NCBI RefSeq assembly: GCF_024662235.1
Contig: NZ_CP096276.1
Coordinates: 434,001 to 498,000, forward strand
Direction: 5' to 3'
Length of the DNA: 64,000 nt
DNA from: Pimelobacter simplex
Lineage (GTDB): Bacteria > Actinomycetota > Actinomycetes > Propionibacteriales > Nocardioidaceae
Below, one piece after another: positions 13,796-29,561 of the stretch (the first letter of the stretch is position 1; each line of letters begins with the position of its first letter). The translations under genes were made by a program, and so were the position numbers. Below the pieces are notes generated by a model. The model saw nothing but the letters and a program-made list of their open reading frames with translations. It made no database searches and had not been told where the DNA came from.

Positions 13796-14518
13796 ATGCC
13801 CCGCCCGCTCATCGCCGTCCCGGCCCGCTTCTCGGCGTCCGCCTCGGCCCTGCGGTACGGCGCGGACGTGACGGCGCGCGCCCTCCTCGACGCCGTGCAT
13901 GCCGCCGGCGGCGAGCCGCTCGTCGTCCACCCGGTCGCGCCCGGTGCCCGGGTCGACCCCGACGAGGTCGCCGAGCGTCTCTGGTACGCCGACGGCGTGC
14001 TCCTGCCCGGCGGCGGCGACCTGGCCGCGCACTGGTCCGGGCAGCGCCCGCACGCGACGCAGTACGACGTCGACGAGGAGCAGGACGCCTTCGACCTCGC
14101 GGTGGCCCGCCACGCGCTCGCCGCGGGCCTCCCGCTGCTCGCCGTGTGCCGTGGCAACCAGGTGGTCAACGTCGCGCGCGGGGGAGACCTGGTCCAGGAC
14201 CTGGGGGAGCGCACGCACCGCCACGTCGTCCAGGCGATCGAGGTGGCGCCGGACTCGCTGTTGGCGGGCGTGGTCGGCACCGCTCCGACGATCTCCTGCT
14301 ACCACCACCAGGGCATCGGCCGGCTCGGCACCGGGCTGCGCCCGGTCGCGCTCGCGCCCGACGGCGTGATCGAGGCGGTCGAGCTCGACGACGCCCGCTC
14401 CTGGTACGTCGGCGTCCAGTGGCACCCCGAGGACACGGCGGCCACCGATCCCGCCCAGGCGGCGCTGTTCGCGGCGCTGGTCGAGGCCGCGGCGGCGTAC
14501 CGCGGCGTCACGCCCTAG
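13796..14518 (+). CDS. Gamma-glutamyl amide hydrolase (peptidase C26, PuuD-like)
   Basis: A 240-residue class I glutamine-amidotransferase-fold hydrolase. The nucleophile elbow is LLAVCRGNQVVNVARGGDLVQDL (Cys about residue 119), with the His-Glu pair in VGVQWHPEDT, and LLPGGGDL as the oxyanion region. The CRGNQ elbow is typical of gamma-Glu-GABA and other gamma-glutamyl amide hydrolases rather than synthetase-bound amidotransferases. It would release glutamate from a gamma-glutamylated intermediate. The glutamine-synthetase-like ligase at 17979 could make that intermediate, and both promoters carry the same operator type. Confidence 0.87.
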   Translation: MPRPLIAVPARFSASASALRYGADVTARALLDAVHAAGGEPLVVHPVAPGARVDPDEVAERLWYADGVLLPGGGDLAAHWSGQRPHATQYDVDEEQDAFDLAVARHALAAGLPLLAVCRGNQVVNVARGGDLVQDLGERTHRHVVQAIEVAPDSLLAGVVGTAPTISCYHHQGIGRLGTGLRPVALAPDGVIEAVELDDARSWYVGVQWHPEDTAATDPAQAALFAALVEAAAAYRGVTP

Positions 14519-15661
14519 GAGTAGCCGAGGACGCTGCCGATCCGGCGGGCGAGGGCGTACTGCCCGCGGGCCATCGGATTCCCTGCCTGCGCGTTGGTGG
14601 CGGGCTTGATCGGGTAGACCCACGACGCCCCGCCGGTGCAGGCCTCGTGCCCGCTGAGCGTGTCGAGCACGTCGACGAAGGTCGCGCCGTTGCGGGTAGC
14701 GGTCGCCCGAATGACGTTGTCGAGCTCGACGGCGAGGCCGTTGAGCGCCTTGCGCACCTGCGGCACCAGCCAGCCGCACTTGCGGACGGCCTTGCCCCGG
14801 AGCGGGAACAGTCGCGGGTACCCGACCACCACCAGCCGGGCGTCCTTCGGCGCCTGCGCCCGGATCGCCTGGTAGCTCGCGCCGAGCCGGCTCGCCAGCG
14901 GGCCCCGGACGAGCTTCTTGGCCTGCCCGTAGGGCTTGCCCTTCTGGACGCAGTTCTTCTGGTGGAGCTTCCACCGCAGGAAGCAGCTCGTCAGGACGTC
15001 GCTGAAGCCGGTGTCGTTGCCGCCGATGGTCACCGTGACGACCTCGGTGAACGGGTGGATCCGGGACACCTGCGGCCCCTCGCCCTTGAAGGTGCCGGTG
15101 AGGTTCGGCATCTCGGCGCCGGAGCAGGCGAGGAACGACTCGACGCGCCACCGGGTGGGGTTGCGGGCCTCCAGGTACTTCGTCCAGGCGTAGGGGCTGC
15201 GGTGGCAGCCACGGCTCGCCGGGTCGTAGCCGCCGGCGCCCTCGCCCGCGCTGTAGGAGTCGCCGAGCGAGGCGACCGCGGTCGGCCGCTTCGAGGCCCG
15301 GTAGCACTGGCGCCAGCCGTCGTTCGGGGGAGTGCTGCAGACCTCCAGCGACTGGCCGTCGCGGGACACGGTGAACGAGGCCTGGGTGTCGTCGCCGATG
15401 GGCTGGCCGGGCGCCAGGTGATGCACTCGTCGAGCCCCGACCCCCACAGGCCCAGGTGGGTCGCCGCGACCGCGGTGATGGTGCCGCCGCGGGCGGTGAC
15501 CTTGACGGTGCCCCCGGTGTACGACCAGTAGCCGGCCAGGGGACGGTGCCCGCGGCCGCCGCGGCCGCCGCGGCCGCCGCGCCCGCCGCGCGCGCCGGGC
15601 TCGCCGCGACGAGCGTGGTCGTCGCGGCACGGGAGCGTGCGGGACGAGGGGCGTGCGGCAT
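14515..15661 (-). pseudogene. Secreted SGNH/GDSL hydrolase broken by two frameshifts
   Basis: Read in three frames, this is one exported esterase/lipase. The ATG 15661 frame (GGGAG five bases upstream) gives an Ala-rich signal peptide. A second frame gives LAGYWSYTGGTVKV to GLDECITW. A third gives the catalytic domain: LGDSYSAGEGAGGYD (Ser), IGGNDTGFSD (Gly/Asn), and DTLSGHEACTG with the late His. The first shift falls in the GCGGCC-repeat tract at about 15540-15590, the second at about 15410-15425; each fits one missing base. Sequencing or assembly error in GC repeats is as likely as a true pseudogene, because the catalytic residues are all intact. Its stop overlaps the GATase stop region. 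Confidence 0.7.
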
Positions 15662-15758
15662 CGGGGCTCCCGTTCGTCGGGCACGTCGTGCTCCGGGGGG
15701 TGCGCCCAGCCCAGGGCACGACGGCCTCGGCGGCCAGGTGCCCGAACGATCCCGAACG

Positions 15759-16268
15759 TCAGGCGGTCTCGTCCTCGCCCTCGACCGCGTTGACGACCTC
15801 GCGCAGGGTCTTGGTGAAGGTGCTGACCTTGCGGTCGGAGAGCTTGCCGATGATCTCGGCCTCGACGGCGTTGAACTCCGGGTAGAGGCGCTCCATGAGG
15901 GTGATCCCCTCGGGGGTCAGTCGCAGCCGGACCAGGCGGCGGTCGCTCTCGTCGCCTTCGCGGGCGATGAGGCCGCGGGTCTCGAGGGTCTTGACGACGC
16001 CGGTGAGGGTCGCCTTGGAGATGTCGGCCGACTCGGCGACGTGGCGGGTCTCCATGCCGTCCCAGATCCAGACCACCCACATCACGACGAACCCGGTCCA
16101 GGTCATGTCGTGCTGGCGCAGCACCCGGTTGGTCAGCTCGCTGCGGACCGCATTGGCGGCGCGGAAGAGGTTCGAGAGCGCGTTGGCGGCGGCGAAGTCG
16201 AGCGGCAGTGCGCCCACGTGGTCCTTCATCGCACGCTCGGTCTCGGCGAGCGTGTGGCGGTCCGGCAT
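15759..16268 (-). CDS. MarR family regulator
   Basis: A 169-residue winged-helix regulator: helices around NALSNLFRAANAVRSELTNRVL, recognition region RHVAESADISKATLTGVVKTLETRGLIAR, and wing DESDRRLVRLRLTPEG. I chose ATG 16268 because the region upstream is the promoter with operator-like repeats; a longer frame to 16367 exists. It is divergent from the permease operon at 16484, with the palindrome GTACGGATCCGAACGATC in between. The same palindrome recurs at the other promoters of the 13.7-29.6 kb block, so this protein is the likely repressor of the whole block, with a pathway metabolite as ligand. Confidence 0.9.
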   Translation of the reverse strand: MPDRHTLAETERAMKDHVGALPLDFAAANALSNLFRAANAVRSELTNRVLRQHDMTWTGFVVMWVVWIWDGMETRHVAESADISKATLTGVVKTLETRGLIAREGDESDRRLVRLRLTPEGITLMERLYPEFNAVEAEIIGKLSDRKVSTFTKTLREVVNAVEGEDETA

Positions 16269-16338
16269 GCGGTCAGCGTAGTCAGCGCCGCCGTGCGAGC
16301 TCGGTAGCAGGGCGCCGAGGGTCAGGTGTCGCCAATTC

Positions 16339-16365
16339 GTTCGGGAACAAACATTTTCGGAAAAC
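16339..16365. promoter_or_regulatory. Operator-like half-sites in front of marR
   Basis: TCGTTCGGGAAC (16337-16348) contains the left half-site TCGTTCGG of the regulon palindrome but with compressed spacing, and TTTTCGGAAAAC (16354-16365) is a second short dyad. They sit about 70 to 100 bases upstream of the MarR start. A weaker autoregulatory site is possible. Confidence 0.3.
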
Positions 16366-16401
16366 ATCGGCTTCGGGGATGGTGTCCTGGGTCACATCCC
16401 A

Positions 16402-16424
16402 TTATCGTACGGATCCGAACGATC
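16402..16424. promoter_or_regulatory. MarR-regulon operator, permease operon
   Basis: The core GTACGGATCCGAACGATC (16407-16424) is preceded by TTATC, and the whole 23-base block recurs identically at 22913-22935. It differs at one position per half from the perfect palindrome ATCGTTCGGATCCGAACGAT. It lies between marR and the permease operon, about 60 bases before the permease start, where a bound repressor would cover the promoter. Confidence 0.7.
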
Positions 16425-16483
16425 CGGTGAACAGGTTCGCCGGGCACCAGCGGCCACGTCGCTGCGGACACTAAGGAGTCCCG

Positions 16484-17941
16484 ATGTCGGACACCGTCAA
16501 CACCACCCTGCGCAAGAACGCGCTCGGCGTCGGCGCGATCGTCTTCCTCGTCCTCGCCGCGGTCGCACCGCTCACCGGCATGGTCGTGGTCGCCTCGCTC
16601 GCGATCGCGCTCGGCAACGGCGGTGGGTCGCCGTTCGCGTTCTTCGCGGTGGCCGTCGTGCTCCTGCTCTTCGCCATCGGCTACGGCAAGATGTCGAGCG
16701 AGCTGGTCAACGCGGGCGGCTTCTACGCCTTCGTGGTCAAGGGCCTCGGCCGGCCGGCGGGGCTCGCGGCGGGGTTCATCGCGATGCTCGGCTACAACTT
16801 CTTCGTCGTCGGCACGATCGGCACGAGCGGCTTCTTCATGAAGATCGTCATCGCCGACAAGACCGGCCTCGACATGCCGTGGCTCTTCTGGGGGCTCGCC
16901 TCGATCACGGTCTGCTACCTGATGGCGCTGCGCGGGGTCGACTTCAGCTCCAAGATCCTCGGCATCTCGCTCATCCTGGAGACCTCGATCCTGATCGTCT
17001 TCGACCTCGCCGTGCTGTTCAAGGACGGCTTCTCGTTCTCGGCGTTCTCGTTCGACTCGATCACCTCCGGCTCCCTGTCCATCGGCCTGCTGCTCGCCGC
17101 GACCGGCTTCCTCGGCTTCGAGGCGACCTCGCTGTTCAGCGAGGAGGCGAAGAACCCGCTCAAGACCGTGCCCCGGGCGACGTACGTCGCGATCACGCTG
17201 ATCGGCGTCATCCTCGGGGTCAGTACCTGGGCCGTGGTCAGCGCGACCGGTGTCGCCCAGGCCCAGGACACCGCCCTCGCGCACCTGCCCACCGGTGACC
17301 TCGTCTTCAGCCTGGCCGACAGCTACATCGGCGGCTTCCTGACCGATGTGATGCAGTGGCTGCTGCTGGTCAGCCTGTTCGCCGCGATGCTCGCCTTCCA
17401 CAACTCGTCGAGCCGCTACCTGTTCTCGCTCGGCCGGGCCCGGGTACTGCCCCAGGCCCTGGCGCGGACCGCGCGCAGCGGAGCGCCGTACGTCGCCAGC
17501 ACCGTGCAGGCGGGCTTCGCGGTCACCGTCGCGGTGATCTTCGCGATCGCCGGTGCCGACCCGATCCTGACCGTCGTGCCCAGCATGCTCGGCTTCGGCA
17601 CGCTCGCCATCCTGGTCCTCCAGGCCCTCGCGGCGCTGTCGATCGTCGTCCACTTCCGTCGTGCCAATGACCCGCGGATCGGCACCACCCTGGTGGCGCC
17701 CGGCCTGGGCTTCCTCGGGCTGTGCTTCGCGGTCACCCTGGCGTTCAAGCACTTCGAGATCGTCGCCGGCTCCGAGTCCCGTGCGGTCAACTCGCTGCCG
17801 TGGCTGCTGGTCGCGGCGCTCGTCGGCGGCATCGGCTACGCCTTCTACCTGCGCACCTCCCGACCCGCCGTGTACAGCGCCCTGTCCAGCGACCTGGAGC
17901 GGTTCGACGATGAGCACCCCGTGACCGCCCCCGTCGCCTGA
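16484..17941 (+). CDS. APC family permease (amine or amino acid uptake)
   Basis: A 485-residue membrane protein with about 12 TM segments. It starts LRKNALGVGAIVFLVLAAVAPLTGM, the APC TM1 pattern, and has GFLGFEATSLFSEEAKNPLKTVPRATY in the TM6-TM7 region. AAGGAG lies upstream of the ATG. It is first in an operon with the glutamine-synthetase-like ligase, reductase and Rieske-like protein, and carries the regulon operator in its promoter. It most likely imports the nitrogenous substrate that the block degrades. It is only distantly similar to the other APC permease at 5165. Confidence 0.9.
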   Translation: MSDTVNTTLRKNALGVGAIVFLVLAAVAPLTGMVVVASLAIALGNGGGSPFAFFAVAVVLLLFAIGYGKMSSELVNAGGFYAFVVKGLGRPAGLAAGFIAMLGYNFFVVGTIGTSGFFMKIVIADKTGLDMPWLFWGLASITVCYLMALRGVDFSSKILGISLILETSILIVFDLAVLFKDGFSFSAFSFDSITSGSLSIGLLLAATGFLGFEATSLFSEEAKNPLKTVPRATYVAITLIGVILGVSTWAVVSATGVAQAQDTALAHLPTGDLVFSLADSYIGGFLTDVMQWLLLVSLFAAMLAFHNSSSRYLFSLGRARVLPQALARTARSGAPYVASTVQAGFAVTVAVIFAIAGADPILTVVPSMLGFGTLAILVLQALAALSIVVHFRRANDPRIGTTLVAPGLGFLGLCFAVTLAFKHFEIVAGSESRAVNSLPWLLVAALVGGIGYAFYLRTSRPAVYSALSSDLERFDDEHPVTAPVA

Positions 17942-17978
17942 TGATGGATCACTGAGAGACCAACGAGGAGAACCGACT

Positions 17979-19331
17979 GTGGAGCACATCGACGAGAACG
18001 CCCTGCGCGCGGCTGTCCAGCAGTTCGCGGAGGACGGGATCGACGTCGTCCGGCTCGGCTACAGCGACCTGATCGGCACCGAGCGAGGCCGGGACATCCT
18101 GGCCGACCGGTTCGACCGGACCGTCGGCGACGGCGTCGCCTTCTGCCGCTCGGTCTACGCCACCTCGCCGCTCGGGGACGTCGTCGACATCGCCGGCGGG
18201 CTCTCCGCCGGCCTGCCCGACATCGTCGCGGTCCCCGACCTCGCCACGGTGAAGCCGGTCCCGTGGGAGCCGGGCGTCGCGCACGTCATCGCCGACGTCT
18301 ACAACCCCGACGGCACGCCGTCCGAGGAGAGCCCGCGCCAGGTGCTCAAGCGCGTCGTCGACCGCTTCGCCGAGCTCGGCATGCGTCCGGTCGTCGGACC
18401 GGAGCTGGAGTTCTACGTCCTCGAGCCCGACGAGACGAAGACCCACGGCTGGCGCCGGTACGGCGAGGCCACCGGCAACGTCTACGTCTCCGGTCTCAAG
18501 GGCGACCCCGAGAACACCCTGCTGTCCTCGCTGCGCGAGCTGGCGGCGTACGGCCTCGACGTGGTCGCGGCCAACCACGAGTTCTCCAGCGGCCAGTTCG
18601 AGATCAACCTCTGGCACTCCGAGGCGCTCGACGCGGCCGACCGGGCGTTCCGGTTCAAGACCGCGGTCCAGGAGCTCTCCCGGCGCCGCGGCAAGATGGC
18701 GACCTTCATGGCCAAGCCGTTCAACGACGAGGGCGGCTCGGGCTTCCACGTGCACTTCAGCACTCTCGACGCCGAGGGACGGCCGCTCTTCGACGACCCC
18801 GCGAGCGAGGACGGCCTCTCCACCGTGGCCCGCTCCGCGATCGCCGGCATCCTCGCGCACGCCCCGGCGCTCGCCGCGATCAGCAACCCGACGATCAACT
18901 CCTACAAGCGCTTCGGCCCCGACACGCTCGCGCCCTGGCTCGTCGACTGGGGCCTCGACAACCGCAGCGCGATGGTCCGGATCCCGCCCGAGCGCGGCCG
19001 CGCGTCCCGGCTCGAGCTGCGCCTCGGCGACGCCTCGGCCAACCCGTACCTGGCGATCGCCGGGCTGCTCGCGGCGGCGTACCTGGGCATCCGCGACGGG
19101 CTCACCCCGCCCGCCAAGCTGGAGGGCTACGGCTACGACCCGGCCAAGGCCGACCGGCTCCCCGGCGACCTCGGCTCCGCCATCGACGCGTTCGAGGACG
19201 ACAAGGACCTCGCCGACCTGCTCGGCCCGTCGTTCGTCGCGTCCTTCGTCGCCTACAAGCGCAACGAGCTCGAGCGGTTCAGCCAGTTCGTGACCGACTG
19301 GGAGTTCCGGGAGTACGCCTACCACCTCTGA
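17979..19331 (+). CDS. Glutamine-synthetase-like gamma-glutamyl-amine ligase
   Basis: A 450-residue GS-fold enzyme from a GTG start with GAGGAG upstream. The catalytic blocks are visible: GPELEFYV, NHEFSSGQFEIN, GSGFHVHFS, NPTINSYKRF, NRSAMVRIP and LELRLGDASANPYLA. The N-terminal beta-grasp region is divergent and the adenylylation-site Tyr of GlnA-I is not apparent, so a role in amine metabolism is more likely than ammonia assimilation. Relatives such as PuuA, GlnA3/GlnA4 and gamma-glutamylanilide synthase join glutamate to amines using ATP. Its neighbours (permease, oxygenase components, C26 hydrolase) fit a gamma-glutamylation route. Confidence 0.87.
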   Translation: MEHIDENALRAAVQQFAEDGIDVVRLGYSDLIGTERGRDILADRFDRTVGDGVAFCRSVYATSPLGDVVDIAGGLSAGLPDIVAVPDLATVKPVPWEPGVAHVIADVYNPDGTPSEESPRQVLKRVVDRFAELGMRPVVGPELEFYVLEPDETKTHGWRRYGEATGNVYVSGLKGDPENTLLSSLRELAAYGLDVVAANHEFSSGQFEINLWHSEALDAADRAFRFKTAVQELSRRRGKMATFMAKPFNDEGGSGFHVHFSTLDAEGRPLFDDPASEDGLSTVARSAIAGILAHAPALAAISNPTINSYKRFGPDTLAPWLVDWGLDNRSAMVRIPPERGRASRLELRLGDASANPYLAIAGLLAAAYLGIRDGLTPPAKLEGYGYDPAKADRLPGDLGSAIDAFEDDKDLADLLGPSFVASFVAYKRNELERFSQFVTDWEFREYAYHL

Positions 19332-19358
19332 GGTGGCCGGCGCGGAGGGAGGATCCCC

Positions 19359-20327
19359 ATGACGACACAACCCATCGTCCGCGAGTACGAGGCGGACCTG
19401 ACGGTGGTCTCCGCCGTCGAGGCCGCGGCCGACGTGATGACGCTGACGCTCGCCGCGGCCGACGGCTCGGCGCTGCCCCCGTGGACGCCCGGCGCCCACA
19501 TCGACCTCGTCCTCGGCGACGACCTGGTGCGCCAGTACTCGCTCTGCGGCAGCCCCGCCGACAGCACCACCTGGCGGATCGGCGTCCTGCGGGCGCCCGA
19601 CAGCCGCGGCGGCTCCAAGGCCGTGCACGCCGAGCTGTCCGCCGGTACGACGGTCCGGGTGCGCGGTCCGCGCAACCACTTCCCGATGGTCGCCTCGCCC
19701 CGCTACCTCTTCGTCGCCGGCGGCATCGGGATCACCCCGATGCTGCCGATGATCGCCGAGGCCGAGGCGTCCGGTGCCGACTGGCGCCTCGTGTACGGCG
19801 GCCGCTCGCGCGCCTCGATGGCGTTCACCGACGAGCTCGCCCCCTACGGCGACAAGGTGACCCTGCTGCCGCAGGACGAGGCCGGCCTGCCCGATCTCGA
19901 CGCCCTGCTCGGCGTACCGGCGCCGGACACGCTCGTCTACACCTGCGGCCCGACCGGCCTGCTCGACGCCGTCGAGGCGCGCTGTGGCGCGTCCTGGCCG
20001 GCCGGGAGCCTGCACCTGGAGCGGTTCGCGGCCAAGGCCGCGGTCTCCGAGGGGGAGGACGAGGCGTTCGAGCTGGTCCTGCAGCGCTCGGGGCTCACCC
20101 TGGAGGTGCCCGCCGGCCAGTCCGTGTTCGAGGTCTGCCGGGCCGCCGGCGTCAGCGTCGTCGGCTCCTGCCTCGAGGGCGTCTGCGGCACCTGCGAGAC
20201 CGAGGTGGTCGACGGCGACGTCGACCACCGCGACTCCATCCTCAACGAGGAGGAGAAGGAGTCCAACGAGTTCATGATGATCTGCGTGTCCCGGTGCCGC
20301 TCGGGCCGGCTGACACTGGACCTGTGA
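19359..20327 (+). CDS. Oxygenase reductase (VanB type: FMN, NAD(P)H, 2Fe-2S)
   Basis: A 322-residue electron-transfer protein. The N-terminal flavin domain has RQYSLCGSP (RxYS FMN/FAD motif, about residue 62) and FVAGGIGITPMLPMI for NAD(P)H binding, then YTCGPTGLLDAV. The C-terminal plant-type ferredoxin domain has a complete cluster motif, GSCLEGVCGTC with a later ICVSRC Cys. It is the class IA reductase layout of vanillate O-demethylase-like systems. It ends 13 bases before the Rieske-like gene, yet that partner lacks cluster ligands. The P450 at 21540 is a possible alternative acceptor. Confidence 0.9.
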   Translation: MTTQPIVREYEADLTVVSAVEAAADVMTLTLAAADGSALPPWTPGAHIDLVLGDDLVRQYSLCGSPADSTTWRIGVLRAPDSRGGSKAVHAELSAGTTVRVRGPRNHFPMVASPRYLFVAGGIGITPMLPMIAEAEASGADWRLVYGGRSRASMAFTDELAPYGDKVTLLPQDEAGLPDLDALLGVPAPDTLVYTCGPTGLLDAVEARCGASWPAGSLHLERFAAKAAVSEGEDEAFELVLQRSGLTLEVPAGQSVFEVCRAAGVSVVGSCLEGVCGTCETEVVDGDVDHRDSILNEEEKESNEFMMICVSRCRSGRLTLDL

Positions 20328-20340
20328 CGGGAGCCCGGAG

Positions 20341-21366
20341 ATGAGAGACCGCAGCACCCCCGGCTACCCCCGCAACGCGTGGTACGCCCTCGCCGCCTCG
20401 TCCGACGTCGGCGCCGCCACCCCGGTCGGCACCCGCGCCCTCGACACCCCCGTCGTCCTGTTCCGCACCGGCGACGGCTCGGTCGTCGCCCTCGGCGACC
20501 GCGACGCCCACCGCCCGTACCCGCTCAGCCTCGGCCACGTCGACGGCGACACCATCGTGTCCGGCTACTCCGGCTTCGCCTACGACCGCACCGGCACCTG
20601 CGTGCACGTGCCCTCGCAGGCGCAGGTGCCCTACGGCGCCCGGGTGCCGTCGTACCCGGTGCGCGAGGAGGGCGGCCTGGTCTGGGGCTGGCTCGGCGAG
20701 CCCTCCCTGGCCTCGCTGCGCCCACCCGTCGCGACCCCCTGGCTGACCGATCCCGGCTGGGAGACCTTCGGCGGAGCCTGGGAGACCGCGGCCAACGTTG
20801 CCCTGCTCCACGACAACTTCGCCGACATCACCCACGTCGCCGTCATCGACCCGGTCATCTCCCCGCCCGCCCTGGCCGGCATCGCGCCCGCCCTCCAGGT
20901 CGAGCTGACCGAGACCACCGTGCAGTTCCACCGCGACTGGCCGCCCGCCCCCATGCCGGAGTGGCAGGCCGAGGTGTCCGGGGCATCGGCCACGTCGTCG
21001 TACGGGCAGCGGGAGGAGGGCGCCTTCCTCGCCCCCGGCCTGTGGGCCGACCGCTGGGACGTCCTCCTGCCCGCCGCCGAGGGCGGCCCCCAGACCTTCC
21101 GCTTCACCCACGCGGTGACCCCGGTCGACGAGCGTCGTACCCGGCACGTGTGGCGGGTCAGCCGCAACTTCGCCCCGGGCGCGGAGGCGAGCGACGTGCT
21201 GCGGCCGATCTTCGAGTCGTACTACCTCAAGGTCCGCGAGATCCTCGAGACCATGCAGCAGGTCATCGACCGCGACGGGTACGGCGACGACGTCAACGTC
21301 GCCGCGGACCTCGCGGCGCTGCAGGTGCGCAAGATCCTGCGGCGGTTGGTGGCGGACGAGGGCTGA
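20341..21366 (+). CDS. Rieske-oxygenase-like protein lacking most metal ligands
   Basis: A 341-residue protein with the overall layout of VanA-type oxygenase subunits (N-terminal Rieske region, C-terminal StAR-like domain). The usual CxH...CxxH ligands are replaced: it reads GDRDAHRPYPLSLG (Asp55 for Cys, His57 kept) and VSGYSGFAYD (Ser74 for Cys, Ser77 for His). In the mononuclear iron motif, DNFADITHVAVID keeps Asp162 and His165 but has Asp170 where the second His should be. The frame is intact and codon use matches its neighbours, so this is not a simple pseudogene. It lies in an operon behind its expected reductase. It may be structural, a binding protein, or an enzyme with new chemistry. 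Confidence 0.85.
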   Translation: MRDRSTPGYPRNAWYALAASSDVGAATPVGTRALDTPVVLFRTGDGSVVALGDRDAHRPYPLSLGHVDGDTIVSGYSGFAYDRTGTCVHVPSQAQVPYGARVPSYPVREEGGLVWGWLGEPSLASLRPPVATPWLTDPGWETFGGAWETAANVALLHDNFADITHVAVIDPVISPPALAGIAPALQVELTETTVQFHRDWPPAPMPEWQAEVSGASATSSYGQREEGAFLAPGLWADRWDVLLPAAEGGPQTFRFTHAVTPVDERRTRHVWRVSRNFAPGAEASDVLRPIFESYYLKVREILETMQQVIDRDGYGDDVNVAADLAALQVRKILRRLVADEG

Positions 21367-21396
21367 GCGCCGCCCGCCGGGCTCCCGCCCACCCCA

Positions 21397-22823: not shown

Positions 22824-22843
22824 TCGGTGAGGGTGTCGCGCAG

Positions 22844-22863
22844 ATCGTTCGGATCCGAACAAT
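22844..22863. promoter_or_regulatory. MarR-regulon operator, P450 promoter
   Basis: ATCGTTCGGATCCGAACAAT differs from the perfect 20-bp palindrome by one base; the inner 14 bases GTTCGGATCCGAAC (22847-22860) are a perfect palindrome. It begins about 20 bases upstream of the P450 start, a position suited to repression. Confidence 0.7.
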
Positions 22864-22912
22864 ATCTGCCGAGAAGTTTGCTCGCAAGGGTGGTCTTTCG
22901 GCCGGCCGGTGG

Positions 22913-22935
22913 TTATCGTACGGATCCGAACGATC
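22913..22935. promoter_or_regulatory. MarR-regulon operator, seven-gene operon
   Basis: GTACGGATCCGAACGATC (22918-22935) with TTATC before it is identical over 23 bases to the site at 16402-16424. It lies 28 bases ahead of the acetoacetate-decarboxylase-like start and faces the P450 site across the divergent promoter region. Confidence 0.7.
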
Positions 22936-22962
22936 TTCGTGCCGCCGACTGAATGAGGCCTG

Positions 22963-23781
22963 ATGAACGACATGGCTGGGTTCTTCTACCCCCGCACCGC
23001 GACCGGCCGGTCGTCCCTGATCCCGTCGCCGCCGTGGTACTACTCCGGCGACCTGCTGACCGTCGAGTACCGCACCGACCCGGCGCGCGTCGCCGAGCTG
23101 CTGCCGGCCCCGCTCGAGGTCGCGCCGGAGGACCCGGGCGCGGTCGCGCTCATCTGGGCCGACTGGCAGTCGTGCTCGGGCACCCGGGAGGAGCTGCTCG
23201 ACCCGGTCCGCTCGCAGTACAAGGAGGCGTTCGTCGTCGTGCGTTGCGCGTACGAGGGCGTGACCTACTCCCGCTGCGTCTACATCTGGGTCGACAAGGA
23301 CTTCGCGATCGCCCGCGGCATGCACCAGGGCTATCCCAAGAAGCTCGGCTCGATGTGGCAGACCCGTCCGCACCCGTTCGCGCACGCGGCCCCGCAGGTC
23401 GCGCCCGGGGGAGTCTTCGGCGCCACCCTCGCGGCCGGCGACCGGCGGCTCGCCCAGGCGGTGCTCACGCTGCGCGAGGAGTCGCCCACCAACGGCTTCG
23501 TCAACGGTCACCCGATGGCGCACCACCGGGTCTACCCGGGCATCGCCAAGGGCTCGCCCGACGCCTACGCCGAGCTCATCGCGTCGGGGGCCAGCTCGTT
23601 CGAGGCCGGTCCGGCGTACGCCGGCGACGTCGAGCTCGAGCTCTTCGAGTCGCCCACCGAGGAGCTGCACCGGTTGCCGGTGCACGAGATCATCGGCGGC
23701 TACTACCGCCAGGTCGGCGTCGTCTGGGACGGCGGTACGTCGCTCGCGCGCCTCACCCCCCAGCAGGAGGCCGCCCGATGA
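22963..23781 (+). CDS. Acetoacetate decarboxylase-like protein
   Basis: A 272-residue member of the ADC superfamily. The Schiff-base region GYPKKLGSM (about residues 124-132) keeps the paired lysines of acetoacetate decarboxylase, and VVVRCAYEGVTYSRCVYIWVDKD precedes it. Superfamily members include decarboxylases, aldolases/dehydratases and cyclases, so the exact reaction is open. It is first in an operon that continues with HpaE-, HpaD- and HpaG-like genes; its stop overlaps the next start (ATGA). A decarboxylation or isomerisation of a meta-cleavage product is a reasonable guess. Confidence 0.85.
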   Translation: MNDMAGFFYPRTATGRSSLIPSPPWYYSGDLLTVEYRTDPARVAELLPAPLEVAPEDPGAVALIWADWQSCSGTREELLDPVRSQYKEAFVVVRCAYEGVTYSRCVYIWVDKDFAIARGMHQGYPKKLGSMWQTRPHPFAHAAPQVAPGGVFGATLAAGDRRLAQAVLTLREESPTNGFVNGHPMAHHRVYPGIAKGSPDAYAELIASGASSFEAGPAYAGDVELELFESPTEELHRLPVHEIIGGYYRQVGVVWDGGTSLARLTPQQEAAR

Positions 23782-25277
23782 GCAGCGAGCACCTCGCACT
23801 GGTCGAGGGCGTCGCGGTCGACACCCGCCACTGGATCGGTGGCGAGCGGGTCGCGTCCGCGACGACCTTCACCGACATCTCGCCGATCGACGAGACGCCG
23901 ATCGCCCAGGTCCACGCCGGTACGGCGACCGAGGTCGACGCCGCCGTCGCCGCCGCCCGTGCGGCGTTCCCGGCGTGGGCGGCGCTGTCGGTCAAGGAGC
24001 GCGGCGACATCCTGCGCGCCGTCGCGGACGGCATCGAGGCGCGCGTCGAGGACCTCTCGCGCGTCGAGACCCGCGACAACGGCTCGCTCATCCGCAGCCA
24101 CCGGCGCGGTGTGATGCCCCGGGTCGCCATGAACTTCCGGGCCTTCGCCGACTTCGCCGAGCACCAGCTCGGGCACCCCGACATGGAGGTGCCGGGCCGC
24201 GGCCACCGCGAGCGGATCACCTACGACCCGGCGGGCGTCGTCGCGATCATCACGCCGTGGAACGCCCCGCTGATGCTCGCCTCCTGGCGGATCGGCCCGG
24301 CGCTGGCCGCCGGCAACACGGTCGTGGTCAAGCCGCCGGAGTGGGCACCGCTCACCGCGAGCCTGCTCGCCGACATCATGGCCGAGGCCGGCGTACCGGC
24401 GGGCGTGTTCAACGTCGTCCAGGGCACCGGGCTCGATGCAGGCGCCCCGCTCACCGCGCACCCCGGCATCAACCGGCTCGCCTTCACCGGCTCGGTCCCG
24501 ACCGCGGGCGTGATCTCGAAGGCCGCGGCAGCCAACATCGTCCCGCTGTCGTACGAGCTGGGCGGCAAGTCGCCCCTCCTCGTCTTCGAGGACGCCGACC
24601 TCGACCTCGCCGTCGAGCTGGCCGTCGAGCAGTTCGACAACGCCGGCCAGGTCTGCCTCAAGGCGGCCCGGATGATCGTGCACTCCTCGCTCGCCGACGC
24701 GTTCACCGAGCGCGTCGTCGCGAAGGCGCGGACCCTGGTCCAGGGCGACCCGCGCGACGAGGCGACCGACGTGTCGGCGCTCGTCTCGCGGCGCCACTTC
24801 GAGCAGATCTCCGGCTTCGTCGAGCGGGCCCTCGCCGACGGCGCCCGGCCGCTGCTCGGCGGTGGGCCCAACACCGAGCTCGGCGGGCTGTACTTCAACC
24901 CCACCGTCCTCGTGGACGCCGCGCCCGACGCGGAGATCATGACCGAGGAGGTCTTCGGCCCGGTCGTCACGATCGAGACGTTCGAGACCGAGGCCGAGGC
25001 GGTCGCCCGAGCGAACGACACCCCGTTCGGGCTGGCCGCAACGCTCGCCACCGGCGACCCCGACCGCGCGGAGCGGGTCTCGAAGCAGCTGCGGGCCGGC
25101 ACGGTCTGGGTCAACTGCTTCTTCGTCCGCGACCTCAACGCCCCCTTCGGCGGCAGCGGCCGGTCCGGCATCGGCCGCGAGGGCGGGATCTGGTCGTTCG
25201 ACTTCTACACCGACATCAAGAACAGCGTGTTCTCGCCCACCGGCTGGGCGGAGCAGGGAGGTGGGTCCGATGGGTGA
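23778..25277 (+). CDS. hpaE: Aldehyde dehydrogenase (HpaE-like semialdehyde dehydrogenase)
   Basis: A 499-residue NAD(P)+-dependent aldehyde dehydrogenase with the complete fold: ITPWNAPLMLASW for cofactor binding, FTGSVPTAG, catalytic Glu in YELGGKSPLLVF, and catalytic Cys in DNAGQVCLKAAR. The start overlaps the upstream stop by four bases, and the stop overlaps the HpaD-like start by eight. Between an ADC-like gene and a class III extradiol dioxygenase, the best reading is 5-carboxymethyl-2-hydroxymuconate semialdehyde dehydrogenase. Other aromatic semialdehydes cannot be excluded. Confidence 0.85.
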   Translation: MSSEHLALVEGVAVDTRHWIGGERVASATTFTDISPIDETPIAQVHAGTATEVDAAVAAARAAFPAWAALSVKERGDILRAVADGIEARVEDLSRVETRDNGSLIRSHRRGVMPRVAMNFRAFADFAEHQLGHPDMEVPGRGHRERITYDPAGVVAIITPWNAPLMLASWRIGPALAAGNTVVVKPPEWAPLTASLLADIMAEAGVPAGVFNVVQGTGLDAGAPLTAHPGINRLAFTGSVPTAGVISKAAAANIVPLSYELGGKSPLLVFEDADLDLAVELAVEQFDNAGQVCLKAARMIVHSSLADAFTERVVAKARTLVQGDPRDEATDVSALVSRRHFEQISGFVERALADGARPLLGGGPNTELGGLYFNPTVLVDAAPDAEIMTEEVFGPVVTIETFETEAEAVARANDTPFGLAATLATGDPDRAERVSKQLRAGTVWVNCFFVRDLNAPFGGSGRSGIGREGGIWSFDFYTDIKNSVFSPTGWAEQGGGSDG

Positions 25278-26229
25278 GGTCGTCGGCGCGGGACTGATCG
25301 CGCACGTTCCCACGATCGTGCTGCCCGAGGAGGTGCGCCGCGAGCTCAACGGCGGCCGGGACTCCACCCTGGTCGCGGGGCTCCAGCAGCTGCGGCGCGA
25401 GGTGTTCGACGTCCTCGACTACGACACCGTCGTCGTCCTGGACTCGCACTGGGCGACGACCGTGGAGTTCGTCGTCACCGCGCAGCAGCGGCGCAGCGGC
25501 CTGTTCACGTCCGAGGAGCTGCCGCGAGGCATGAGCCAGCGGCCGTACGACTTCGCCGGCGACCCCGAGCTGGCGCACCTGATCGCGAGCAAGGCCGCCG
25601 AGCACTCGACGTGGATCACCCCGATCGAGGACGACGCGCTGCCGATCTTCTACGCGACCACCAACGTGTGGGAGTACCTCGGCCAGGGACTGCCCGACAA
25701 GAAGTGGATCTCGATCGGGGTCTGCCAGACCGCCGACGGCGAGGACGCGCTGCGGCTGGGCCGGGCGCTCGGCCAGGCGATCGCCGCGTCCGACCGCAAG
25801 GTCCTGCTCATCGCGAGCGGCGCGATGTCCCACACGTTCTGGCCGCTGCGCCGGCTGCGCGACCACGAGGCCGCCGGCGTCGAGCACATCTTCACGCCCG
25901 AGGCCGCAGCCGCCGACGCCGAGCGGATCGACTGGTTCAAGCGCGGCGAGCACGCCCGGGTCGTCGACACGATGGACGAGTTCTACCGGTTCAAGCCGGA
26001 GGCGCGGTTCCAGCACTACCTGATGATGATCGGAGCCCTCGGCGAGGGCGACTGCACCGCACCCGGCCGCCAGTACGGCGAGTACGAGAACTCCGTGGGC
26101 ACCGGCCAGGTGCACCTGTGGTTCGACCGTCCCGACGCGGGCTTCCCGGCCGCGCGGGCGACCCCGACCGACCCCGACTACGTCCGCCAGATGAGCGCGC
26201 CCGGTGCCGACGTACCGGCCGCGGGCTGA
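25270..26229 (+). CDS. hpaD: Class III extradiol dioxygenase, HpaD-like
   Basis: A 319-residue LigB-superfamily Fe(II) dioxygenase. The line-up with E. coli HpaD is good from memory: AHVPTIVLPEE at the N-terminus (first His), VVVLDSHWATTVEF (second His), SGLFTSEELPRGM, FAGDPELAHLIA, IASGAMSHTFW, and a late SVGTGQVHLWF. It should cleave 3,4-dihydroxyphenylacetate (homoprotocatechuate) or a close catechol next to the diol. I chose ATG 25270 because GGGAGG sits eight bases upstream; GTG 25261 would overlap that Shine-Dalgarno sequence. It is the diagnostic ring-cleavage gene of this block. Confidence 0.87.
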   Translation: MGEVVGAGLIAHVPTIVLPEEVRRELNGGRDSTLVAGLQQLRREVFDVLDYDTVVVLDSHWATTVEFVVTAQQRRSGLFTSEELPRGMSQRPYDFAGDPELAHLIASKAAEHSTWITPIEDDALPIFYATTNVWEYLGQGLPDKKWISIGVCQTADGEDALRLGRALGQAIAASDRKVLLIASGAMSHTFWPLRRLRDHEAAGVEHIFTPEAAAADAERIDWFKRGEHARVVDTMDEFYRFKPEARFQHYLMMIGALGEGDCTAPGRQYGEYENSVGTGQVHLWFDRPDAGFPAARATPTDPDYVRQMSAPGADVPAAG

Positions 26230-26240
26230 GAGGAACACGC

Positions 26241-27101
26241 ATGACCACCGAGTACCGCCGGATCCTGCTCGACGGCAACGCGGTCGACGTACGACGCGAC
26301 GGCGAGCTGCTCGTCGCGGGCGACGGCCGCACGGTCGCGATCGCCGACGCGACGCACCTGCCGCCGGTCACGCCGAGCAAGATCGTCTGCGTCCACCTCA
26401 ACTACGCCTCGCGCGTCGCGGAGATGCTGACCACACTGCCGCCGGCGCCGACGTACTTCCACAAGCCGGTGTCGGCGCTCAACGCGCACGAGTCGGCCGT
26501 CGTCCGGCCGCAGGGGTGCAAGTGGCTCAACTACGAGGGCGAGATCGCCATCGTGATCGGCCGCACGGCGCGCAACATCGCGCCGGAGGAGGCGGGGGAG
26601 TACATCCGCGGCTACTCGATCGGCAACGACTACGGCCTGCACGACTTCCGCGACACCGACTCCGGCTCGATGCTGCGGGTCAAGGGCGCCGACACGCTCT
26701 GCCCGATCGGGCCGGGCATCGTCGAGGGCTGGGACTTCCGGGACAAGCGGATCCGCACGCTCGTCAACGGTGAGGTCCGCCAGGACGGCAGCACCAGCGA
26801 GATGAAGTGGGACATGCACTACCTCGTCGCCGACATCGCGCGCACGATCACGCTCCAGCCCGGTGACATCCTGCTGTCCGGTACGCCGGCGATCTCGCGC
26901 ACCGTCTATCCCGGCGACGTCGTCGAGGTCGAGGTCGAGGGCCTCGGCACGCTGCGCAACCACATCGTCGAGGGCCCGACGCCGGTCCGCAGAGACGTCG
27001 GTGCGCAGCCGACCGAGAGCGAGGAGGTCCTCTCGACCGCCCAGGGCGGCGACTGGGAGTTCCGCGGCATCCGCAAGCCCGACCTGTCGAACACCCACTG
27101 A
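26241..27101 (+). CDS. Fumarylacetoacetate hydrolase-family protein (HpaG-like)
   Basis: A 286-residue FAH-fold protein. The metal ligands appear in NYEGEIAIVIG and YGLHDFRD, with KPVSALN before them and ILLSGTPA near the C-terminus. In homoprotocatechuate pathways this family supplies the decarboxylase/isomerase (HpaG) or hydratase (HpaH) after HpaE. It ends 16 bases before an LLM oxidoreductase gene. The exact step among decarboxylation, hydration or hydrolysis cannot be decided by eye. A separate HpaF isomerase and HpaI aldolase are not in the window. Confidence 0.83.
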   Translation: MTTEYRRILLDGNAVDVRRDGELLVAGDGRTVAIADATHLPPVTPSKIVCVHLNYASRVAEMLTTLPPAPTYFHKPVSALNAHESAVVRPQGCKWLNYEGEIAIVIGRTARNIAPEEAGEYIRGYSIGNDYGLHDFRDTDSGSMLRVKGADTLCPIGPGIVEGWDFRDKRIRTLVNGEVRQDGSTSEMKWDMHYLVADIARTITLQPGDILLSGTPAISRTVYPGDVVEVEVEGLGTLRNHIVEGPTPVRRDVGAQPTESEEVLSTAQGGDWEFRGIRKPDLSNTH

Positions 27102-27117
27102 TCCGGAGGATCGCGCC

Positions 27118-28053
27118 GTGCCCGCACCCCGCATGCTGATGATCCTCAGCGAGAACTGGACCCTCACCGACGGCCGCAGTCTCGGCGACCTCGTCACCTG
27201 GGCCCGGACCGCCGAGGACGCCGGCTTCGACTCGGTGATGATCTCCGAGCACGTCGTGCTCGGCCCGGACGCCAGCGACAAGGGCGTGATGGGCAACCCG
27301 CGCGACTACGCGATGCCCGGCAACCAGGACCCGCTGATGCCCTGGCCGCACTCGCTGACGCTGTTCTCGGCGATCGCCGCGGTCACGTCGCGGATCCGGC
27401 TCGTCGGTGCCGCTGTGCTCGCGCCGCTGCGCCACCCGCTGATGCTCGCCCGCGAGCTCGGCACCCTCGACCTGCTCTCCGAGGGCCGGCTCGTCGTCCA
27501 GCCCAGCGTGAGCTGGAGCAAGGACGAGTACGCCGCGCTCGGCGTCCCGTTCCGCGAGCGTGGCCGGATCCTCGACGAGCAGCTCGAGGTGATGAACCTG
27601 GTCTTCACGCAGTCGCCGGCCACCCACCACGGGCGCTACTTCGACTTCGAGGACATCTACCTGGAGCCGAAGGCGTTCCGCCCCGAGGGGCCGCGGATGT
27701 GGTTCGGCGGGCAGAAGGCGCACGGCGCCGTCGTCGACCGCCTCGCGCGGTACGGCCACGGCTTCCACCCGCTGGGCAGGCCGACCGAAGAGGACCTGCG
27801 CGTCGTCCGCGAGGCGATGGCCGCGGCCGGGCGCGACGCTGCCGACCTGGAGATGGTGGGCGGCGTCCGGTACCGGTTCCCCGACGACCGCTCCCTGGCC
27901 GACCTGGGGGAGTCGATGGACTCGATCCCGGCACAGCTCGACCAGGGTTTCACGACCTTCTGCATCAAGCCGTCGATGTACATCGACGATGCTTCGGGGA
28001 TGGAGAACTTCTGCAGGGACGTCATGAAGCGCGCCGAGGCGATGGGCCGATGA
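27118..28053 (+). CDS. LLM class flavin/F420-dependent oxidoreductase
   Basis: A 311-residue luciferase-like protein from GTG 27118 with GGAGGA seven bases upstream. Features are WARTAEDAGFDSVMISEHVVLG, RIRLVGAAVLAPLRHPLMLARELGTLDLLSEGRL with the usual strand-helix pattern, and FTTFCIKPS near the end. Members act as monooxygenases with FMNH2 or as F420-linked dehydrogenases. It overlaps the GATase start by four bases. In this operon it may hydroxylate or oxidise an intermediate. It is not a close copy of the LLM protein at 9969. Confidence 0.85.
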   Translation: MPAPRMLMILSENWTLTDGRSLGDLVTWARTAEDAGFDSVMISEHVVLGPDASDKGVMGNPRDYAMPGNQDPLMPWPHSLTLFSAIAAVTSRIRLVGAAVLAPLRHPLMLARELGTLDLLSEGRLVVQPSVSWSKDEYAALGVPFRERGRILDEQLEVMNLVFTQSPATHHGRYFDFEDIYLEPKAFRPEGPRMWFGGQKAHGAVVDRLARYGHGFHPLGRPTEEDLRVVREAMAAAGRDAADLEMVGGVRYRFPDDRSLADLGESMDSIPAQLDQGFTTFCIKPSMYIDDASGMENFCRDVMKRAEAMGR

Positions 28054-28760
28054 GCGCCGGGACCAAGCGGCTGCTGGTGATCGGGCACGACTACCTGGCG
28101 ACGTCCGGGGCGATCGAGGGCCGCTTCGCCGAGCGCGGGTACGAGGTGGAGAGCATCCGCGTGGTGCCCTCCGACCGCTTCGACGACCCCGGTGTGGACG
28201 TCGACTTCCCGGACCCGCGCGACTACGACGCCGTCCTCGTGCTCGGTGCCCGGTGGGGTGTCGACGGCGACGAGGTCGCGTCGTGGGTCAAGCCCGAGCT
28301 CGAGCTGCTGCACACCGCGGACGAGGCCGAGGTCCCCGTCCTCGGTATCTGCTTCGGCGGCCAGATGCTCGCCCAGGCCCACGGCGGGTCGGTCGGCCGG
28401 TCGCCCGTGCCCGAGATCGGCCCCCACGTGGTGTCGGGAGAGCCGGCCGTGGCCGGGATCTGGACGCAGTGGCACTACGACCGGTTCGTCCCGCCGGCGG
28501 ACGCGACGGTGATCGGCGTCAACGCCGCGGCACCCCAGGCCTTCGTGCTGCGGCGCAACCTGGCGGTGCAGTTCCACCCCGAGGTCGACGCCGACAGCGT
28601 CGCCGCGTGGATGGCGGACGGCGGCGCCGCGGACGCCCGCGACCAGGGCCTCGACCCGGACGTGCTGCTCAACCACATCCGCTCGCTCGACGACGACATC
28701 CGGGTCCGGGCCGCGGCGCTCGCCGACTACTTCCTCGACGTGGTCGCCGTGGGCCGATGA
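28050..28760 (+). CDS. Class I glutamine amidotransferase-fold protein
   Basis: A 236-residue GATase1 protein. The nucleophile elbow is VLGICFGGQMLAQAHGG (Cys about residue 104), with His-Glu in LAVQFHPEV. The elbow is of the GMP-synthase/GATase type, unlike the CRGNQ elbow of the C26 hydrolase at 13796. No synthetase domain is attached, so it may be a stand-alone gamma-glutamyl amide hydrolase like the amidotransferase gene of aniline clusters. Start and stop both overlap neighbours by four bases, so it belongs to the operon from 22963. Confidence 0.85.
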   Translation: MSAGTKRLLVIGHDYLATSGAIEGRFAERGYEVESIRVVPSDRFDDPGVDVDFPDPRDYDAVLVLGARWGVDGDEVASWVKPELELLHTADEAEVPVLGICFGGQMLAQAHGGSVGRSPVPEIGPHVVSGEPAVAGIWTQWHYDRFVPPADATVIGVNAAAPQAFVLRRNLAVQFHPEVDADSVAAWMADGGAADARDQGLDPDVLLNHIRSLDDDIRVRAAALADYFLDVVAVGR

Positions 28761-29561
28761 GCCGGGTCGTCCTCGTCACCGGCGGCGGTACCGGCATCGG
28801 TGCCGCGGTCGCCCGGCTGCTCACCGCGGGCGGCGACCAGGTCGTCGTCTGCGGCCGCCGCGAGGAGCCGCTGCGCGACGTGGCGGCCGGGACCGGGGCC
28901 CGCGCCGTCGTCGCCGACGTCAGCGAGCCGGCCGGCATCGCCCGGGTCGTCGACGAGACGATCGCCGCGCACGGCCGGCTCGACGGACTCGTCCTCAACC
29001 ACGGGATCATCCACGTCGGCCGCGTGGACGAGGTCACCCCCGAGCAGTGGGAGGAGACCCTCCGGGTCAACCTCACCTCGCCCTTCCTGCTGGTCCGGGC
29101 CGCCCTCCCGCACCTGCTGGCCGCGCGCGGCGCGGTCGTCGCGGTGTCGTCGGTCGCCGCGCTGCGCGCCGCCGACGGCATGGCCGCCTACTCCGCCAGC
29201 AAGGCCGGCCTCCAGATGCTCGTGCAGTCGCTGGCGGTCGACCACGGCCGTGACGGGCTGCGCGCCAACGCGGTCTGCCCCGGCTGGACCGCCACCGAGA
29301 TGGGCGACGCCGAGATGGCCGAGCTGGGCGCGGCCCGCGGGCTCTCGGTCGCGGACGCCTACCGGCTCGCCCACGGCGGTCGTGCCGCAGCGGCGGGCGG
29401 CCCGGCCCGAGGAGGTCGCGGCGGCCGTCGGCTGGCTGCTGTCGGGGGCGGCGTCGTACGTGAACGGGGTGGTGCTGCCCGTCGACGGCGGCTCGTGCGT
29501 CGTCGATCCCGGCACGCTCGCGCTCGACCCGCGGGTCACCGTCGACCTGACGGGCGGCTGA
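28757..29561 (+). pseudogene. SDR family oxidoreductase with an apparent one-base insertion
   Basis: The frame from ATG 28757 (TGGGTGIGAAVA cofactor motif, NHGIIHVG, VSSVAAL, catalytic YSASKAG, NAVCPGWTATEM) runs correctly to YRLA at about 29370. The true C-terminus, PQRRAARPEEVAAAVGWLLS to VNGVVLPVDGGSCV, is in the next frame. Removing one C from CCC at 29370-29372 restores a normal ~267-residue SDR. Either the sequence has a homopolymer error or the last gene of the operon is recently broken. It would act as an NAD(P)-dependent alcohol or diol dehydrogenase. Confidence 0.8.

Follow-up and report, generated by a model that had tools for sequence, protein, structure and literature searches.

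A block of genes at 13796-29561 of a 64,000-nucleotide window (the whole stretch analysed, 434001-498000 of contig C1 in the Pimelobacter simplex genome G000, 6.26 Mb in 3 contigs) recalls several described systems and departs from each. With the hpa/hpc pathway it shares a LigB-type extradiol dioxygenase (HpaD-like), a semialdehyde dehydrogenase, an FAH-fold isomerase/decarboxylase and a MarR regulator; it differs in that this dioxygenase is about 30-34% identical to the annotated hpaD products of Ruegeria and Phaeobacter plasmids, an acetoacetate-decarboxylase-fold (ADC) enzyme is present while no HpaH/HpcH was seen among its genes, and a glutamine synthetase (GS)-like ligase, a cytochrome P450 and a C26 hydrolase are added. 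As in the Puu pathway, a GS-like ligase would act first and a C26 hydrolase last, and in 12 of 55 related loci a PuuC-like aldehyde dehydrogenase (ALDH) adjoins the C26 gene, but the block interposes ring cleavage, and the ligase, second ALDH (ALDH2) and C26 proteins scanned all score below the PuuA, PuuC and PuuD cut-offs. The aniline and 1-naphthylamine systems (AtdA/TdnQ/NpaA) also combine a GS-like ligase and a glutamine amidotransferase (GATase)-like protein with downstream ring cleavage; they use a two-component Rieske dioxygenase (PMC11335346), whereas in the block the Rieske homologue has lost its ligands and ring hydroxylation probably falls to the P450. The isopropylamine (IpuC) cluster of pTC1 has a GS-like ligase, a GATase, a P450, a ferredoxin and reductase, a short-chain dehydrogenase/reductase (SDR) and an ALDH, but the two ligases are 38.6% identical and no ring-cleavage genes are annotated in the 13 kb read. 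Finally, VanA/DdmC-type Rieske oxygenases resemble one block protein in their Pfam Rieske and VanA_C matches and in being paired with a reductase; unlike them, this Rieske-derived protein (RSK) has replaced Rieske ligands and iron-site residues and is encoded in a cluster with a P450. The parts are of known kinds, and what appears to be new is their combination and the presence of a ligand-less Rieske homologue in a P450 pathway. In searches of open-licence papers we recognised no description of gamma-glutamyl-tyramine or gamma-glutamyl-dopamine catabolism, or of a ligand-less Rieske oxygenase, which is not proof of absence.

We read the block as a putative MarR-controlled pathway of arylethylamine catabolism (tyramine, or dopamine if the ring is a catechol from the start) that joins Puu-type gamma-glutamyl protection to Hpa-type meta-cleavage, a reading to which we assign a probability of roughly one half. 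All gene classes named for 13796-29561 in a first-pass annotation of the same DNA are present there as open frames, and the MarR, ADC, LLM and SDR genes are additional members:

13796-14518, forward strand: C26, a PuuD-like class I GATase-fold hydrolase (Pfam C26, 2e-47)
15759-16268, reverse strand: MarR-family regulator, HpaR-like (HpaR TIGR02337, 55 bits; cut-off 121)
16484-17941, forward strand: APC-family amine/amino-acid permease (Pfam AA_permease_2, 4e-24)
17979-19331, forward strand: GS-like ligase (Pfam Gln-synt_C, 3e-100; below every NCBIfam GS cut-off)
19359-20327, forward strand: PDR-type reductase, NAD domain plus C-terminal plant-type [2Fe-2S] ferredoxin (Pfam NAD_binding_1, 2e-6; Fer2, 2e-12)
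20341-21366, forward strand: RSK, degenerate VanA/DdmC-type Rieske oxygenase homologue (Pfam Rieske and VanA_C; alignment with DdmC)
21540-22823, reverse strand: cytochrome P450 (Pfam p450, 2e-22)
22963-23781, forward strand: ADC-fold protein with the Lys motif GYPKKLG (Pfam ADC, 2e-57)
23778-25277, forward strand: HpaE-like semialdehyde dehydrogenase, an ALDH (TIGR02299, 486 bits; cut-off 638)
25270-26229, forward strand: HpaD/LigB-type extradiol dioxygenase (TIGR02298, 132 bits; cut-off 316)
26241-27101, forward strand: HpaG-like FAH-fold isomerase/decarboxylase (TIGR02303, 212 bits; cut-off 276)
27118-28053, forward strand: LLM-class flavoprotein, accessory (69% identical to an annotated TIGR03619-family LLM oxidoreductase of Streptomyces canus)
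28050-28760, forward strand: GAT2, second class I GATase-fold protein (in 14 of 21 RSK loci)
28757-29561, forward strand: SDR oxidoreductase gene, frame broken near 29370 (intact copy in L020)

The SDR gene of the window has this one frame break, for which decay and a base-calling error are indistinguishable.

The gene set, which the first-pass annotation had proposed to seek in other genomes, recurs in reordered form across Actinomycetes. Scanning GTDB species genomes with an RSK protein alignment yielded 21 useful loci (L007-L027) from Nocardioides, Pimelobacter, Mycolicibacterium/Mycobacterium, Paractinoplanes, Ornithinimicrobium, Aeromicrobium, Pseudonocardia, Propionibacteriaceae and others, with the nearest named RSK homologues in Nocardioides and Pimelobacter. 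Several of these loci are cut by contig ends, and the order of genes is shuffled while the set is kept: besides RSK, the 21 loci contain the reductase (20), MarR (20), GS (19), P450 (19), ADC (18), C26 (18), HpaE-like ALDH (17), HpaD (17), FAH (16), GAT2 (14), APC (13), LLM (10) and SDR (8) genes. A larger table of 55 loci comprises the window, L007-L027, L050-L054 and loci found by further searches, with presence defined by chosen tblastn thresholds (for example, 27% for the decarboxylase and 50% for ALDH2); L028 and L029 were left out of the tallies, and L055-L063 (9 of the 14 stretches from one search) out of the table. The counts are 50 for HpaD, 49 for ALDH, 48 each for GS, P450 and FAH, 47 for ADC, 43 for MarR, 40 for C26, 32 for GAT2, 13 for the PuuC-like ALDH and 11 for a pyridoxal-phosphate (PLP) decarboxylase. 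Some loci are kin: L011 and L127 are judged to be two contigs of one genome, L053 and L143 belong to one contig, and L093 and L128 are nearly identical. The table is biased towards RSK because L007-L027 and L050-L054, 26 of the 55 loci, were found through it, and unbiased figures come from the 30 genomes, out of 394 of the class, that match the HpaD-like protein model. A Novosphingobium plasmid also carries relatives of GS (36% identity), P450 (42%), HpaD (56%), FAH (76%) and ADC (56%), as well as of two ALDHs, with MarR and 2Fe-2S ferredoxin genes annotated beside them and no C26 gene annotated or matched within the 28.9 kb read; since its ligase is distant, the substrate there may differ.

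The block apparently forms one MarR-controlled regulon, as judged from putative operators. At up to 4 mismatches, the 20-bp palindrome ATCGTTCGGATCCGAACGAT occurs exactly four times in the 64 kb, starting at 13749, 16404, 22844 and 22915, in excess of chance given a mean of 0.0 sites in 30 first-order Markov resamples:

13749-13768, no strand assigned: operator-like site upstream of the C26 gene (4 mismatches)
16404-16423, no strand assigned: operator-like palindrome between the MarR and permease genes, heading the permease-GS-reductase-RSK genes (1 mismatch)
22844-22863, no strand assigned: operator-like palindrome, P450 promoter (1 mismatch)
22915-22934, no strand assigned: operator-like palindrome, ADC promoter, heading the ADC-to-SDR genes (1 mismatch)

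The P450-promoter and ADC-promoter palindromes are 71 bp apart, and site pairs spaced by 70-72 bp are usual in the relatives. Across the 21 loci L007-L027, 62 sites were found at up to 4 mismatches against about 0.2 expected in all, 57 of them no more than 350 bp upstream of a cluster gene and spread over 20 loci; at up to 6 mismatches, every one of the 21 loci has a site before a cluster gene. The candidate regulator, related to HpaR yet under that family's cut-off, is missing from one RSK locus. The shared operators and the conserved gene set bear out the proposed tie between the GS-like ligase and an extradiol meta-pathway. It is very improbable, in our judgement, that the block instead serves an amine-free aromatic acid or a step of secondary metabolism with the GS-like protein as a bystander: the block members being known from sequence alone leaves room for this explanation, but GS (48 of 55 loci) keeps pace with HpaD (50), FAH (48) and ADC (47), and both the GS and the HpaD operons are headed by operator-like sites. 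In five Nocardioides-type clusters (L007, L008, L010, L011 and L020, at about 2500-4770), C26 is preceded by a gene for a large amidase-like protein, which itself has operator-like sites in front of it or close by; the family search was made on the L007 copy.

The predicted sequence of reactions, drawn from protein families and gene context, is as follows. The amine would be taken up by the APC permease and converted by the GS-like ligase to gamma-glutamyl-tyramine, which the P450, fed by the reductase and RSK, would hydroxylate on the ring to gamma-glutamyl-dopamine. The HpaD-like dioxygenase would then open the ring of a substrate in which a CH2CH2NH-gamma-Glu side chain replaces CH2COOH; with the tag retained at this point, the amine would be unable to cyclise on the new aldehyde. 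Oxidation by the HpaE-like ALDH and the action of the HpaG-like FAH protein would give a decarboxylated 2-oxo-enoate, from which the ADC-fold enzyme, by hydration and retro-aldol cleavage, might release pyruvate and gamma-glutamyl-4-aminobutanal, a substrate of PuuC; these products follow if the chemistry is the same and only the side chain differs. A second, PuuC-like ALDH would yield gamma-glutamyl-gamma-aminobutyrate (gamma-Glu-GABA), and the PuuD-like C26 hydrolase would split it into GABA and glutamate. Several observations suggest that the tag may stay on: the Hpa-like proteins score below their cut-offs, ADC stands in place of a hydratase and aldolase, ALDH2 lies beside C26 in some of the loci, 8 queries for amine oxidases gave no match in the 55 loci, and plasmid pSLUN1 of S. 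lunaelactis has the lower pathway with no P450 in the 29 kb read. The fuller proposal, that this is a new tyramine/dopamine route in which the tag is kept through ring cleavage and which merges with GABA metabolism, and that the P450 is served in many actinobacteria by a ligand-less Rieske-derived redox or docking partner exchangeable for a ferredoxin system, is tentative, and we would give it somewhat worse than even odds.

The ligase is probably no glutamine synthetase, in keeping with the first-pass annotation, and we propose an organic amine, not ammonia, as the acceptor of its glutamyl group. In the window and in all 18 aligned relatives (19 of 19), Leu replaces the -EAP- motif Glu, which we take to be the Glu flap of GS and which is kept in a GS paralogue (L002) encoded in the same genome. 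The score against the PuuA family is 270 bits (cut-off 650), and a PDB sequence search with the protein matched glutamate-methylamine ligase (220 bits), type III GS (187 bits) and 8wwu (167 bits), the last presumably NpaA1. Loss of a second GS residue, Asp50', was dropped as evidence; only the Glu flap is used here, because an Asp can be aligned in most relatives, with Gly in three. The C26 protein of the window has gamma-glutamyl-GABA hydrolase as its best NCBIfam family (68 bits, cut-off 266), and its Cys and His motifs are intact in 18 of 18 aligned relatives. Flap loss has been reported for NpaA1-type ligases, and the described aniline and 1-naphthylamine enzymes likewise lack the Glu flap and come with a GATase-like hydrolase (PMC11335346), which fits a tag-retaining route for an amine on the ring or one carbon off it (aminophenol, aniline or benzylamine type) that would end in glycine or beta-alanine; the chemistry from ring cleavage onwards suits any chain length. 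We nevertheless regard such a substrate as unlikely, given the PLP amino-acid decarboxylases in 11 of 55 loci, which point to an arylethylamine, and the ranking of glutamate-methylamine ligase and type III GS above 8wwu.

The ring-cleavage enzymes lend no support to homoprotocatechuate itself, the cleavage substrate suggested at first pass. The HpaD-like (132 bits, cut-off 316), HpaE-like (486, cut-off 638) and HpaG-like (212, cut-off 276) proteins of the window and their Streptomyces canus counterparts (127, 518 and 212 bits) all stay below the equivalog cut-offs, and catalytic motifs are kept: the His and Glu motifs of HpaD in the window and 17 of 17 aligned relatives, and the ALDH Cys, GAT2 Cys/His and FAH motifs in the aligned loci. 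Both hpa-type clusters read contain a hydratase and an HpcH aldolase; family searches found neither an HpaH-type hydratase nor an HpcH/HpaI aldolase among the block genes of the window, and there was no aldolase family among the Pfam matches listed (25 of 40) for 38 of 42 unassigned open reading frames (ORFs) in other cluster spans. These ORFs were chosen by codon-position GC, so that some may be missed, and the 4 left out were two near-copies of those of L012 and two already identified. The ADC-fold protein aligns through its Lys motif, kept in the window and 18 of 18 aligned relatives, with PDB entries 6eej and 4zbo, and MppR is among its further matches; these solved relatives form Schiff bases and catalyse aldol and dehydration reactions. 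Plain homoprotocatechuate breakdown was rejected on the failed equivalog cut-offs, together with HpaH and HpaI not being seen in these limited searches. One annotated hpa cluster (L176, Phaeobacter porticola pP97_b) also includes genes for a PLP-dependent decarboxylase and a succinate-semialdehyde dehydrogenase.

A subtler variant has nitrogen lost before ring cleavage, for example by P450 N-dealkylation to an arylacetaldehyde and glutamine, so that homoprotocatechuate would be the true substrate after all. HpaD, HpaE, HpaG and HpaR are indeed the nearest or near-nearest curated families, the runner-up matches of the second ALDH include StyD-type phenylacetaldehyde dehydrogenase, and a further ALDH follows the SDR gene in L007, L009 and L020; succinic semialdehyde dehydrogenase (SSADH) is the best family of the further ALDH in L020 and L127, the two that were scanned. 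This variant is nonetheless improbable in our view: apart from the sub-cut-off Hpa matches and the lack of an HpcH/HpaI aldolase family among the matches listed, it would leave the C26 hydrolase idle, and L094, on pSLUN1, has the lower pathway and a decarboxylase with no P450 or amine oxidase match in 29 kb. More broadly, 8 PF01593-type queries gave no amine oxidase match in the 55 loci; no PuuB-type oxidase was seen, although the family of PuuB itself, presumably other than PF01593, was not queried. No oxidase family but one FMN_dh is among the Pfam matches listed for the unassigned cluster ORFs, no copper amine oxidase was found in the host genome, and these limited searches found no enzyme that would remove nitrogen before ring cleavage.

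The Rieske-derived protein is probably no functional Rieske oxygenase. Residues C49, H51, C68 and H71, which we take to be the Rieske ligands of DdmC (dicamba monooxygenase), align with D55, H57, S74 and S77 of the window protein, and the iron triad H160, H165 and D294 of DdmC with H165, D170 and V298, so that three of four Rieske ligands are gone and other residues occupy two of three mononuclear-iron positions. Among the window protein and the best 120 of 506 homologues, 119 sequences cover the Rieske region: position 55 (first Cys) carries Asp 74 times and Cys 45 times, all 119 keep His57, position 74 (second Cys) is Ser in all 119, and position 77 is Ser in 84 and Thr in 35. At the iron site of the same set, position 165 is His in 121 of 121, position 170 Asp in 117 and His in 4, and position 298 Val in 120 and Met in 1. 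In the RSK tree, the window protein falls within a 34-row clade (support 100/98) that lacks Asp at the third iron position and in which cluster-ligand sets (CH/CC, CH/DH, CH/SS, CH/ST, DH/SS, DH/ST) and iron-site residues (HD, HH, HA, QA) vary. A genome search produced graded relatives, from VanA-type proteins with all motifs intact (L042-L048, L078) through intermediates, such as L037, L038 and L040, with an intact Rieske motif and the first iron His changed to Asn or Asp, to the 34-row clade itself. If our reading holds, they offer a graded series, intact at one end and nearly ligand-free at the other, of a Rieske oxygenase that loses its metal sites within a conserved pathway that includes a P450. 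In L051-L054 (RSK rows L033-L036) and L071, a Cys-His/Cys-Cys set, possibly a 3Cys:1His cluster, occurs without the iron-site residues. An aniline-type Rieske dioxygenase was rejected, the Rieske ligands being gone and a beta-subunit gene missing among the block genes; the redox proteins that had been likened at first pass to an aniline-type Rieske system are thus better explained by a degenerate RSK, with the P450 as the likely oxygenase.

RSK might still act as an oxygenase, through a new metal site to which H165, D170 and further conserved residues contribute and which takes electrons straight from the ferredoxin domain of the reductase. All 27 aligned sequences of the nearer family share H57, S74, H165, H257 and H269, the reductase gene adjoins that of RSK in 20 of 21 loci (the contig ends at the other), and AlphaFold2 gave one confident model (pLDDT 87) and four that are not (59-75). 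One new metal site would, however, not account for the varied ligand and iron-site sets of the 34-row clade, and the P450 occurs with a ferredoxin reductase where there is no RSK, so that we think an oxygenase role quite unlikely.

The alternative role that we favour for RSK, as part of the redox partner of the P450, is suggested by module exchange. The haem Cys motif of the P450 is present in the window and 19 of 19 aligned relatives, and the ferredoxin Cys motif of the reductase in the window and 20 of 20. Among the 30 HpaD-picked genomes, RSK occurs in 7 (G000, G045, G027, G105, G158, G256 and G288) and a putidaredoxin-reductase-like protein (ferredoxin reductase) in 23, with both modules in 2 (L052, L054) and neither in 2 (L142, a 9-kb contig, and L151, with HpaD alone). 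Similarly, of the 48 loci with a P450 in the 55-locus table, 25 have RSK, 24 of them with the reductase (in L019 the contig ends there), and 24 the ferredoxin reductase, accompanied in 23 cases by a small CxxHGxC-type ferredoxin; both modules are found in 2, and 1 (L127) has neither, RSK and the reductase sitting on another contig of its genome, G045. The modules thus largely replace each other beside the same P450, which suggests that the reductase and RSK probably supply its electrons; the [2Fe-2S] domain of the reductase may transfer them while RSK docks. A precedent for this reductase type serving a P450 is an apparent fusion beside the L050 cluster (16566-18752, reverse strand), an open frame with a P450 match in its first part and a reductase match in its second. 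Genes for P450, reductase and RSK-type proteins also occur together outside this pathway, in L055-L060, where the Rieske motif is intact in 5 of 6 (L057 lacks the second Cys) and the first iron-binding His is changed to Asn, Asp or Tyr in 5 of 6 (L059 keeps His).

An arylethylamine substrate, a class that takes in the tyramine-, dopamine- or phenethylamine-like compounds put forward at first pass, gains some support from the PLP decarboxylases in the related loci, which are found in 9 of the 30 HpaD-picked genomes. In L094 on pSLUN1, a decarboxylase whose best family is tyrosine decarboxylase (129 bits, below cut-off) is found with GS, HpaD, ALDH, FAH, ADC, ALDH2 and C26, and the 29 kb read contain no P450, reductase or ferredoxin; this would fit a P450 that is needed just to make the catechol and a substrate that arrives here as one. 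PuuC is the best NCBIfam family of ALDH2 in 6 of 6 scanned proteins, all under the PuuC cut-off. Class III aminotransferases occur in 3 of 55 loci; that of L127 is a GABA transaminase above cut-off (649 bits against 507; the other two are not), encoded together with an SSADH-like ALDH beside the cluster (66-1412 and 2890-4143). Proximity of GABA transaminase and SSADH was rejected as proof of the GABA end, since one genome in 38 is a rate that chance could give by a rough estimate.

Several observations weigh against the arylethylamine pathway as drawn. The sequence data are compatible with more than one chain length of the amine. GAT2, the LLM and SDR proteins and the amidase of the five Nocardioides-type loci have no place in the scheme, and a hydratase-aldolase role for the ADC-fold enzyme is proposed by analogy with the chemistry of its relatives. 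Diaminobutyrate decarboxylase is the best match for the decarboxylases of L019 and L054, with the tyrosine decarboxylase MfnA lower; none of the three that were scanned against families (L019, L054, L094) reaches a cut-off, and the other eight are assigned by tblastn identity alone (28-71%). PuuC is a broad model and the best match of many ALDHs, and the C26 proteins reach 68-92 bits on PuuD against the cut-off of 266. Of the 12 ALDH2-C26 pairs, nine come from Streptomyces-type clusters and are therefore not independent, and in the HpaD-picked set the pair occurs in 6 of 30, all of one family. The cluster of the window itself has neither a PuuC-like ALDH nor a decarboxylase; the nearest PuuC-like relative in the host genome lies elsewhere and is 52% identical to that of S. 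lunaelactis. A P450 acting with pSLUN1 may be encoded elsewhere in its genome, and although 37 of 38 genomes encode a GABA transaminase, it was seen near the cluster in one only (G045, L127). As to the link between P450 and RSK, L046, with intact Rieske and iron motifs, also has a nearby P450-like gene.

If the pathway is as proposed, soil actinobacteria would use catecholamine-type compounds without amine oxidases or reactive cyclising intermediates, and gamma-Glu-GABA would be its predicted diagnostic metabolite. A different, testable function would then fall to many proteins that currently carry the annotation 'aromatic ring-hydroxylating dioxygenase', '3,4-dihydroxyphenylacetate 2,3-dioxygenase' or 'glutamine synthetase family protein'.

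Next to the C26 gene, the window has a reverse-strand frame at 14515-15405 whose product by eye resembles an SGNH lipase; it matched no NCBIfam family and was not counted in the pathway. Adjoining the block at 8695-12661 (reverse strand) are genes for a urocanate hydratase (824 bits, cut-off 375), an LLM-class protein and an MFS transporter, all in the same direction.

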